Shown piece by piece: positions 20,473-26,612 of a stretch of 32,002 bases of DNA (positions within the stretch are counted from its first letter, which is position 1; every line of letters begins with the position of its first letter). Below the pieces are notes generated by a model. That model saw only the letters and a list, made by a program, of their open reading frames with translations. It was not told the DNA's origin and did not search any database. Origin of the DNA: a virus; the IMG/VR virus record IMGVR_UViG_3300021962_000390, positions 1-32,002 of that record; one strand, 5' to 3'. The position numbers were made by a program, and so were the translations under genes.

Positions 20473-21276
20473 ATGACACGTAAGTACTCGTCCATCAGCG
20501 TTGAGACAACGCTGGCTACTGGAATCAACAACAGTTCAACTACTATGACAGTTGCTACTGGTACAGGTTCTGCTCTTTTAGGTGGTGTTACTCTTGCTGC
20601 TGGTAACGTAGATCAGTTTACCGTAGCACTAGATGTTGATACACAGAACGAAGAAATTGTTTTTATCACAGCAGTATCTAGCGATACATTTACCATCGTA
20701 CGTGGACAAGCAGGAACCTCTGCTATCTCACATACTGGTGGTGCTACAGTCAAGCACGTCCTTACTAGTAGCGACCTAACCTTCTACACAACAGGTGTAG
20801 CCACAGCAGATGCTGCTATCCCAAAGGCGTTAGTAACAGCCAAGGGTGACATCATTGGTGCTAGCGCATCAGGAGTACCAGACAACCTAGCCGTTGGAAC
20901 TAACGGGCAGGTGCTGACTGCAGACTCTGCTGAGACTCTTGGAATCAAGTGGGCAACACCAGTAGATGCAAGCCTAACAATTAACGCTAAGACTGCTAAC
21001 TACTCACTAGTAGCAGGCGATGTAAACAAGCTCATCACTATGAGCAGCGGTTCAACAACAACGCTGACAGTTCCTAACGGAGTCTTTACAACAGGCCAAC
21101 AGATTAACATTCAGCGCCTTGGCGCAGGAGCAGTCCAGATTAGAAGCGATGGAACTACTGCATTGACTTCAACTGGTGCAACATCAACTGCGCCAGATCT
21201 ACGCGCTCAGTACAGTGCTTGCACAATTATCTGTACATCTAGTAACAACTTCACAGTGATTGGGGATCTATCGTAA
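20473..21276 (+). CDS. Tail fibre protein (267 aa)
   Basis: ATG 20473 follows TAAGGAAAGCC. The N-terminal ~100 residues form a beta module with NEEIVFITAV, FTIVRGQAGTSA and SHTGGATVKH, probably docking to the virion. The next part is a fibre linker, LVTAKGDIIGAS then NLAVGTNGQVLTADSAETLG and KWATP, a pattern frequent in phage tail fibres. The C-terminal ~100 residues are a beta domain (YSLVAGDVNKLITM, TLTVPNGVFTTGQQINIQR) that could form a trimeric tip. The stop overlaps the next ATG. Confidence 0.75.
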   Translation: MTRKYSSISVETTLATGINNSSTTMTVATGTGSALLGGVTLAAGNVDQFTVALDVDTQNEEIVFITAVSSDTFTIVRGQAGTSAISHTGGATVKHVLTSSDLTFYTTGVATADAAIPKALVTAKGDIIGASASGVPDNLAVGTNGQVLTADSAETLGIKWATPVDASLTINAKTANYSLVAGDVNKLITMSSGSTTTLTVPNGVFTTGQQINIQRLGAGAVQIRSDGTTALTSTGATSTAPDLRAQYSACTIICTSSNNFTVIGDLS

Positions 21277-25627: not shown

Positions 25628-25646
25628 CCCATAGCGCGAGGCAAAC

Positions 25647-25684
25647 AGGAGGTCGGTCCCTACGGGGACCGGCCTTCTTTTTTT
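25647..25684 (+). terminator. Intrinsic terminator of the late operon (UACG tetraloop)
   Basis: Positions 25647-25660 pair with 25665-25678 as a 14-bp stem with two G-U wobbles. The loop TACG at 25661-25664 is closed by C-G, giving a UNCG-class, unusually stable tetraloop. A run of seven T follows (25678-25684). This is a textbook rho-independent terminator on the plus strand, 20 bp after the holin-like gene. On the minus strand the structure follows the stop of the convergent gene but lacks a comparable T-run, so it may be only partly bidirectional. Confidence 0.9.
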
Positions 25685-25985
25685 ATGCCACTTTGTCGGA
25701 AGGGCAGGGAACTACTACTAGATTCCCACAGTTTACACAGGTAGCATCAAGGAAGTACCAGACCAGTTCATAGTCCTCAAAGGATGCCATAACGTTGAAC
25801 ACCTGAGAGCCACACGGACAGATGTGGATGGGTCCTAAACCCCGCAGATCGGCTCCAAAAGGCTCAGGAAGGGCATTCCTACGCCATCTAAACGATGGCA
25901 GGATTGGTAGACGGAACCGCACAGTTACTGTACGGTTGGTACCACTGCGCCCTTTGAGGGCGCCCGTCTGTTTAATTCGCCTCAC
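25683..25985 (-). CDS. Zn-ribbon protein, the only minus-strand gene (up to 100 aa)
   Basis: The minus-strand frame ends at TAA (25685-25683) and opens at GTG 25985 (100 aa) or GTG 25922 (79 aa). The C-terminal half is conserved-looking: LPEPFGADLRGLGPIHICPC, then SFEDYELVWYFLDATCVNCG and VVPCPSDK. Cys pairs at C56/C58 and C83/C86 (plus C94) form a probable zinc ribbon of a type I recognise from actinophages. The longer start has TACAAT seven bases upstream (leaderless initiation). The shorter start would leave the inverted-repeat cluster untranslated. Being alone on this strand suggests early or regulatory expression. Function is unknown; DNA or RNA contact is a guess. Confidence 0.65.
   Translation of the reverse strand: MRRIKQTGALKGRSGTNRTVTVRFRLPILPSFRWRRNALPEPFGADLRGLGPIHICPCGSQVFNVMASFEDYELVWYFLDATCVNCGNLVVVPCPSDKVA
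25909..25969. other. Possible three-way-junction RNA element
   Basis: AGACGG (25909-25914) pairs with CCGTCT (25964-25969). Immediately inside are two hairpins. The first is 25915-25924 with 25928-25937, loop TTA, 10 bp with one C/A mismatch on plus that becomes G-U on minus. The second is GCGCCCT 25947-25953 with AGGGCGC 25957-25963, loop TTG. Both abut the outer stem with no unpaired base, and a 9-nt linker joins them. Further hairpins lie just left (25883-25888/25894-25899 and 25866-25870/25876-25880). This layout looks like a folded RNA. Strand is uncertain, and it overlaps the start region of the minus-strand gene. Confidence 0.45.
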
Positions 25986-25992
25986 GGCTCAT

Positions 25993-25998
25993 ATTGTA
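25993..25998 (-). promoter_or_regulatory. Minus-strand -10 box (TACAAT)
   Basis: TACAAT on the minus strand (25998 to 25993) ends seven bases before GTG 25985. This is the distance expected if transcription begins at the start codon, as in leaderless actinobacterial mRNAs. The best -35-like hexamer (TTGCGT, at about 26023-26018) is 19 bases upstream, a loose fit. Confidence 0.35.
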
Positions 25999-26009
25999 AT
26001 GCCCAGTAG

Positions 26010-26025
26010 CGTTGCTTACGCAACG
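26010..26025. repeat. Inverted repeat in the divergent intergenic region
   Basis: CGTTGC (26010-26015) and GCAACG (26020-26025) are perfectly complementary around TTAC. The site lies between the two divergent -10 boxes, where a repressor or activator operator would be expected. It could instead be a small RNA hairpin. Confidence 0.4.
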
Positions 26026-26038
26026 ACACGCCGAGGAC

Positions 26039-26055
26039 TGGTATGCTCTCTGGTA
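26039..26055 (+). promoter_or_regulatory. Extended -10 promoter for the Ntn-hydrolase operon (leaderless)
   Basis: TGGTATGCT at 26039-26047 is an extended -10 (TG-n-TATGCT) ending seven bases before ATG 26055. Transcription would then begin at the A of the start codon. No strong -35 is seen, which an extended -10 can tolerate. The alternative ATG 26043 lies inside this box and would need an upstream transcript; GAGGA at 26033-26037 could serve it. Confidence 0.45.
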
Positions 26056-26612
26056 TGACAACAATCGCGGCACTTGAGGGAATTGATTACGCTGTTTTAG
26101 TAGCTGACTCACAGATCACCGAGGACAATCTAGTAACACTTGCCACCAGTACGCCCAAGATTATCGAGGTCGGCAAGTATCTCATTGGTATCTCTGGTGA
26201 CACTAGGCCCGGTGACATCCTTGCATACAACTGGAAGCCACCGCTCTATCGTGGTGAGGACCCAGCCCAGTTTATGGGAAAGAAAGTTATACCCAGTATC
26301 AACCAAGCATTTACCGACAATAACTACGACTACAACAAGGTGGACAAAGATGGTGGCTTCGATTATCTCATTGCTTTTAACGGCAATATCTTTCGCATTG
26401 CTTGTGATCTCTCTTTTTTCCAAGCAAATCACGGAGCGTACGGCATTGGTTCTGGTGGTCAGCTCGCTCTTGGCTACCTGTATTCAATTGTCAAACCTGA
26501 TATGGACTTAGCCTTTGCAAAAAGACACGCCCGTCGTGCCGTTGATATCGCTTCGGTGCTTGACGCTAACACTGGCAAGCCTTTACAGTTAGTAGTACAA
26601 GAAAGACTCTAG
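26055..26612 (+). CDS. Proteasome/HslV-like Ntn hydrolase
   Basis: With ATG 26055 the product is 185 aa, close to HslV length. It begins MTTIAALEG; removal of Met would expose a Thr nucleophile. After Met removal, Asp falls at mature position 17 (ADSQIT) and Lys at 34 (TPKI), near the proteasomal Thr1/Asp17/Lys33 triad. GISGD and GIGSGGQLALG match the conserved inner strand and the SGG turn of proteasome beta subunits. It should therefore be a self-contained N-terminal-nucleophile peptidase or amidase. Starting at ATG 26043 instead would add MLSG as a four-residue leader. It is the first gene of the early block, after a divergent promoter region. The substrate is unknown. Confidence 0.8.
   Translation: MTTIAALEGIDYAVLVADSQITEDNLVTLATSTPKIIEVGKYLIGISGDTRPGDILAYNWKPPLYRGEDPAQFMGKKVIPSINQAFTDNNYDYNKVDKDGGFDYLIAFNGNIFRIACDLSFFQANHGAYGIGSGGQLALGYLYSIVKPDMDLAFAKRHARRAVDIASVLDANTGKPLQLVVQERL

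Follow-up and report, generated by a model that had tools for sequence, protein, structure and literature searches.

We asked whether a cluster of inverted repeats at positions 25883 to 26025 of a viral genome encodes a folded RNA, which of its stems have been kept in related phages, and on which strand and to what end they might act. The DNA analyzed, here called the window, is a virus record of 32,002 nucleotides from IMG/VR, which holds many close relatives of it. Gene content and freshwater-type relatives suggest an actinobacterial host; a search for the host in 84,980 genomes by an 18-base scan returned 7 hits in unrelated phyla, at about chance level, GenBank phages gave no DNA match, and a search for tRNA and tmRNA genes found none. 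The late genes occupy the plus strand and end at a strong terminator, which is followed along the window by the element studied here and then by a proteasome-beta/HslV-like gene that heads exonuclease/helicase genes (Table 1).

The preliminary description had proposed that an outer stem (AGACGG/CCGTCT) encloses two hairpins, AACCGCACAG-TTA-CTGTACGGTT at 25915-25937 and GCGCCCT-TTG-AGGGCGC (plus-strand letters) at 25947-25963, with a further hairpin to the left (GCCATC-TAAAC-GATGGC) and an inverted repeat to the right (CGTTGC-TTAC-GCAACG). All of its coordinates match the sequence, and the single mismatch in hairpin 25915-25937 is C/A on the plus strand and G-U on the minus strand, as it stated. 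Both hairpins abut the outer stem without a gap, again as stated, but they are separated from each other by 9 unpaired bases (25938-25946). RNA folding of 25909-25969 yielded exactly the described three-way junction on both strands, with -33.6 kcal/mol for the minus strand (z of -5.20; 0 of 200 shuffles as good) and -27.4 kcal/mol for the plus strand (z of -3.50; 1 of 200 shuffles as good). The fold thus exceeds the expectation from base composition on either strand.

Table 1. Features of the locus, with their positions in the window
Feature	Positions	Strand	Basis or observation
Dedicated strong terminator of the late/lysis operon	25643-25682	+	Terminator pattern scan
Gene for a zinc-ribbon-like protein (CxCG..CxxCG), 100 aa	25683-25985	-	Translation; frame conservation in relatives; core pN/pS 0.30
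Left hairpin, in the same coding sequence (codons of LPSFRWR)	25883-25899	-	Not conserved; absent from several relatives
Second invariant block CCGTCTAC, codons CGT CTA of RFRLP	25907-25914	-	Synonymous positions fixed; locus counts
Outer stem (25909-25914/25964-25969) and three-way junction	25909-25969	-	Not conserved as a unit
Hairpin specific to the window	25915-25937	-	Not conserved; 57% of cells paired
Conserved covarying hairpin, minus letters GCGCCCT CAA AGGGCGC	25947-25963	-	Covariation, shuffles, relatives
Invariant start block GAGCC-GTGA-GGCGA	25977-25990	-	GAGC(C)-loop-(G)GCGA in GTG-less relatives
-10 box of the minus promoter, TACAAT	25993-25998	-	7 nt before GTG; putative transcription start
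Inverted repeat between the divergent promoters, candidate shared operator	26010-26025	.	Over the expected -35 regions of both
-10 box of the plus promoter, TATGCT	26042-26047	+	7 nt before ATG at 26055
Gene for a proteasome-beta/HslV-like protein, divergent, apparently leaderless	26055-26612	+	PF00227 E 1.2e-10; phrog_1040 E 3e-26

The zinc-ribbon gene and its apparently leaderless start

The preliminary description placed the cluster between divergent genes and offered a small RNA as one reading of it. We found that in most relatives the segment is translated as the start of a minus-strand gene for a zinc-ribbon-like protein, so neither the intergenic placement nor a free noncoding or small RNA fits the locus. 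In the window, the putative GTG start codon lies at 25985-25983. It is followed by a fast-changing N-terminal extension, codons 2 to about 21, in which the hairpin element lies; pN/pS was 0.77 for the extension and 1.03 for the codons of hairpin 25947-25963, compared to 0.30 for the protein core. The open reading frame had no significant family match, and the fold and profile searches with the protein were unusable (pLDDT of 72; best Foldseek E value of 1.7). As a caution, a cluster of hairpins that seems to lie between divergent genes may instead belong to the 5' end of a coding sequence whose leaderless start has not been annotated.

Relatives were collected by protein and by DNA pattern, and 92 distinct sequences, a set selected for the conserved CCGTCTAC, were compared over the span from the minus -10 box to this block. 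The distance from the GTG to CCGTCTAC was 64, 67, 70, 73, 76, 79, or 82 in 86 of the 92 sequences, all in phase; a further in-phase length, 106, lacks the GTG and brings the in-phase total to 87. The frame of the GTG was open in 88 sequences, while the other two frames were open in 1 and 20 of the 92, respectively. Of the 86 elements that keep the GTG in phase, 61 have no ATG or GTG at the protein core and so need the 5' GTG. An ATG or GTG was present at the core in 6 of 6 out-of-phase or GTG-less elements versus 25 of the 86 others (Fisher P = 0.001). The -10 hexamers among the relatives were TACAAT (125), TACCAT (28), TATAAT (7), TACACT (2), and TAAAAT (2). On both sides of the locus, the -10 box has the spacing of a leaderless start, 7 nt before the minus GTG, from which the frame is conserved, and 6 to 7 nt before the plus ATG, where 175 of 176 relatives have TANNNT at one of these two distances. 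Because of this short distance between -10 boxes and start codons, the minus and plus genes both appear from their sequence to be leaderless. Neither divergent promoter has a clear -35.

The TGGTAGACGG motif, considered as a noncoding signal or a tRNA remnant, was dropped as a candidate because the frame test shows that RFRLP is encoded. A zinc-ribbon protein of about 42% identity is found in the cultivated Nanopelagicales phage L358 (OX376641.1, Planktophila phage LanE43-AprF5), where the gene is on the plus strand, comes immediately after a lysozyme-like gene, and is without the hairpin element. Some relatives have a second gene in the minus operon, an HNH-endonuclease-like open reading frame (assigned by eye) that overlaps the end of the zinc-ribbon gene (L002:3313-3663, minus strand); the window is without it.

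Conservation of the hairpin and of the other stems

Among the RNA helices of the proposed junction, only hairpin 25947-25963 was conserved in the relatives. It was found in all 164 distinct loci that carry the minus promoter block, with a stem of 6 to 8 pairs. Its arms occur as 12 distinct pairs, including GCGCCC/GGGCGC, GTGCCC/GGGCAC, GCGTCC/GGACGC, GCGACC/GGTCGC, and GCGGCC/GGCCGC, as well as GCAGCC/GGCTGC, GCGGCG/CGCCGC, GGGAGC/GCTCCY, and CGGCCC/GGGCCG. Stem pair 4 uses all four Watson-Crick pairs (CG 72, GC 11, TA 5, and AT 4), and stem pair 2 occurs as CG, TA, and GC. We counted at least 20 changes of pair 4 on the gene tree, a number that recombination may inflate; the loci are related and recombining, and all such event counts are rough. 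Against synonymous-codon shuffles, the mean z of the hairpin segment was -3.25 for the minus RNA and -2.74 for the plus RNA, compared to -0.42 for control codons of the same gene, and 39 of 45 types (minus) and 37 of 45 types (plus) fell below 5%. Comparable hairpins occur at 0.5% of window positions. The best hairpin was picked in each segment, and a pairing of 100% therefore holds partly by construction, which the shuffles and the rarity control answer in part. Between lineages, the hairpin slides by 1 to 2 nt against the reading frame, with the total length staying in phase, so it is no by-product of a conserved peptide. As judged by this comparison of sequences, the hairpin is selected for pairing and not for sequence or peptide. 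Within the window, we found no other copy of the element. Among the other genes of the window, only 20473-21276 has a comparable hairpin within +16 to +25 of its coding sequence (hairpin at 20498-20512, GCGTTGAGACAACGC).

The remaining parts of the junction behaved differently. All six outer pairs were formed in 18 of the 92 relatives, and there were no two-sided changes. When the outer stem was counted beside the hairpin, 72% of cells were paired, versus 54% after shuffling of the 5' six-mers, and some weaker pairing at this position may matter. In alignment A2, the three helices were paired in 74, 75, and 57% of cells, the middle value being an underestimate due to misalignment of the hairpin in several rows. 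RNAalifold, run on this MAFFT alignment, missed hairpin 25947-25963, whose frame-shifting position is misaligned there, and its sole call was a helix of AGGCG with CGUCU that rests on invariant columns. This alternative closing helix, with AGGCG at +4 to +8, was predicted in 73 of 99 class 1 sequences (see below). Since both of its sides are invariant and thus give no compensatory support, and since CGTCTA is not the best-pairing synonymous choice, we treat it as a candidate only. The three-way junction is an added feature peculiar to this phage and its closest relatives. With the outer stem and hairpin 25915-25937 not conserved, a packaging-type RNA (pRNA type), another reading in the preliminary description, lacks the conserved junction that it calls for. 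Of the three guesses made there, the regulatory leader came nearest. An RNA-like structure under selection is supported, as 25947-25963 covaries and exceeds the synonymous-codon shuffles; the junction as a unit is not. Breakage of the stems without compensation in relatives with a conserved minus-strand start, named there as a ground for refutation, was observed for the outer stem and two hairpins but not for 25947-25963.

Anchoring at the 5' end and the invariant blocks

The loci fell into three classes. Class 1, to which the window belongs, comprises 149 distinct loci that combine a leaderless GTG with a hairpin at +20 to +25; in these GTG-class loci, the hairpin and translation across it coexist. 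Class 2 (15 loci) retains the promoter and the hairpin (+16 to +23) and has no in-phase translation from a 5' GTG; 13 of these loci are without a usable GTG and have the hairpin at +16 to +20, and the other two, L011 and L181, keep a GTG that is out of phase. The start in class 2 is mostly an ATG further downstream, preceded in L354 by AGGAGG at 9 nt. Both the start block and the hairpin are missing from class 3 (18 loci). Across the promoter-bearing relatives, the hairpin lies 16 to 25 nt from the putative 5' end, and its retention at this promoter distance in GTG-less loci shows that its position follows the 5' end rather than the start codon.

The hairpin is flanked by the invariant start block (GUGAGGCGAAU) and by a second invariant block, CCGUCUAC. 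We found CGT CTA in 164 of 164 hairpin loci and CGC TTA or CGC CTA in 18 of 18 class 3 loci. In contrast, a Leu-Arg pair elsewhere in the zinc-ribbon gene uses many codons. Because CGT CTA co-occurs with the hairpin (164/164 versus 0/18), the second block and the hairpin behave as parts of one module. The set of 92 relatives had been chosen for CCGTCTAC; ahead of this choice, 130 of 132 loci passed both criteria. At the putative start site, the palindrome GAGC(C)-loop-(G)GCGA gains or loses its C and G together (L331, L340, L354, L015, and L114), and its loop varies among GTGA, GTAA, GATA, GTTA, GTA, and GAA. Three GTG-less loci, L331 (about 1380-1500), L340, and L344, have a leader of about 95 nt with two hairpins and with a AGGAAGGAG or AGGAGGGAG motif 12 to 13 nt before the ATG, where a stem over the start region is possible.

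Strand of action, function, and alternatives

On balance, we think it probable that a cis-acting, 5'-proximal mRNA hairpin and its two invariant flanking blocks control the minus-strand zinc-ribbon gene, by a mechanism and from a leaderless start that we infer. The message would be transcribed from one of two back-to-back promoters, both giving apparently leaderless messages, and the hairpin would act as RNA in cis on this single gene as a 5'-proximal control of initiation. In the leaderless versions, it may hold the ribosome at the weak 5' GUG; alternatively, and in both versions, a regulator may bind the hairpin, or the hairpin may alternate with pairing of the start region. More tentatively, and with low probability in our own judgment, the first 80 nt or so of the leaderless message might constitute an undescribed phage RNA element. 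In it, the hairpin and two invariant blocks able to pair with each other beside the GUG (AGGCG/CGUCU) would act as a switch of the gene, either by masking or exposing the mRNA 5' end or through RNA polymerase, while being translated, and related phages would have kept the element after the start codon moved downstream.

The preliminary description called the strand undecided. Both strands do fold, and we find modest support for minus-strand action in the better energies of the minus RNA, in stem-end G-U pairs that occur only in the minus-RNA sense (15 U-G and 2 G-U, with no A-C), and in the lack of a consistent plus-strand T run, the stems themselves being almost all Watson-Crick. On the plus strand, the hairpin could serve as a transcription terminator or an insulator and keep late-gene transcription from running into the divergent early promoters, which it does immediately precede. 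It shares with intrinsic terminators a GC-rich stem of 6 to 8 pairs and a short loop, a pattern scan labels it terminator-like, and in many relatives a T-rich stretch follows the stem on the plus side (on average 4.9 T per 10 nt, compared to 1.7 for the minus side). However, this stretch keeps a fixed distance from the GTG and lies 3 to 9 nt off the stem in most relatives; at least five T within 8 nt of the stem were found in only 28 of 149 GTG-class loci and 3 of 15 other loci (31/164), and most relatives have no adjacent T run on either strand. Several GTG-less loci lose the T run (CTGTAAATTC) yet keep the hairpin. Since the T stretch is distant or lost and the late operon already has a dedicated strong terminator at its end, we regard a plus-strand terminator as unlikely. 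The palindromes could also be DNA sites between the divergent promoters, either operators bound by a dimeric regulator or a feature of a replication origin. This would suit the inverted repeat 26010-26025, with its conserved CGACACGCCG flank, and the palindrome around the start site, but hairpin 25947-25963 keeps its symmetry and not its sequence (12 arm pairs), unlike a protein operator, and CGACACGCCG occurs once in the window, leaving DNA sites an improbable account.

A hairpin with no nucleic-acid function, arising in a translated extension simply from codon use and common ancestry, would agree with the relatedness of the loci and with translation of the region in most of them. Against this stand the synonymous-codon shuffles, the two-sided stem changes (four pair types at pair 4), the rarity of such hairpins, and the persistence of the hairpin in loci that have ceased to translate this region from the GTG, which together make it highly unlikely. 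The first 80 nt or so of the early transcript could also act as a put-like nascent RNA, which would fold and bind RNA polymerase and alter pausing or termination, as HK022 putRNA does; the fixed promoter distance, the similar length (about 70 to 80 nt), and the invariant blocks around a covarying stem are consistent with this. The HK022 RNA, with known antitermination, is a structured RNA of about 70 nt directly downstream of an early phage promoter, and putL, just downstream of PL, has two stem-loops (PMC9378689). In contrast, the element here has a single conserved stem that overlaps coding sequence, only one gene (two in L002) lies downstream before the convergent late operon, leaving little to antiterminate, and Rfam 15 gave no gathering-score match for the window and six loci and none up to an E value of 10 for the element. 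A put-like function is therefore hardly probable.

Among known systems, the nearest concept to a cis-acting hairpin of the zinc-ribbon message is that of START elements (structure-assisted RNA translation), which are described for bacteria and eukaryotes, with a stated position of +16 to +19 (PMC7664666). These, too, are stable coding-sequence hairpins just past the initiating ribosome, and they are a proposed aid to start-site selection (PMC7664666). However, the stem of the GTG class begins at +20 to +25, and GTG-less loci have the hairpin upstream of the start codon, with anchoring at the 5' end, so that neither the position nor class 2 fits. Stabilizing stem-loops of the ompA type also lie close to the mRNA 5' end (PMC7148126), whereas here 15 to 24 nt precede the hairpin; in M. 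smegmatis, 5'-UTR hairpins did not stabilize mRNA (PMC11728522), which makes a role in mRNA stabilization less likely. The promoter arrangement resembles that of PL1/PR2 in Cluster O mycobacteriophages, two divergent, back-to-back SigA-like actinophage promoters whose start sites are predicted at first codon bases, that is, leaderless; the portion of that report available to us describes other genes in another host and no gene-start hairpin (PMC4351075).

Hairpins near mRNA 5' ends are of a known kind. In a narrow search, the literature contained no description of this element, nor did we find described a hairpin inside the codons of a leaderless message that is retained when the start codon moves. 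Leaderless messages are without a 5' UTR, the usual seat of bacterial control elements, and this locus suggests a way around, in which the structure would sit inside the first codons, the peptide would drift, and indels summing to multiples of three would keep the frame. Sister phages that have the hairpin but no GTG start, and whose RNA is not read from a GTG, are natural controls, and the class 3 phages, without the hairpin, provide a negative control.

Between the divergent promoters, the arms of the inverted repeat vary together, as TCGC/GCGA in some relatives versus TTGC/GCAA in others, with CGACACGCCG conserved beside them (26010-26033 for the repeat with this motif).
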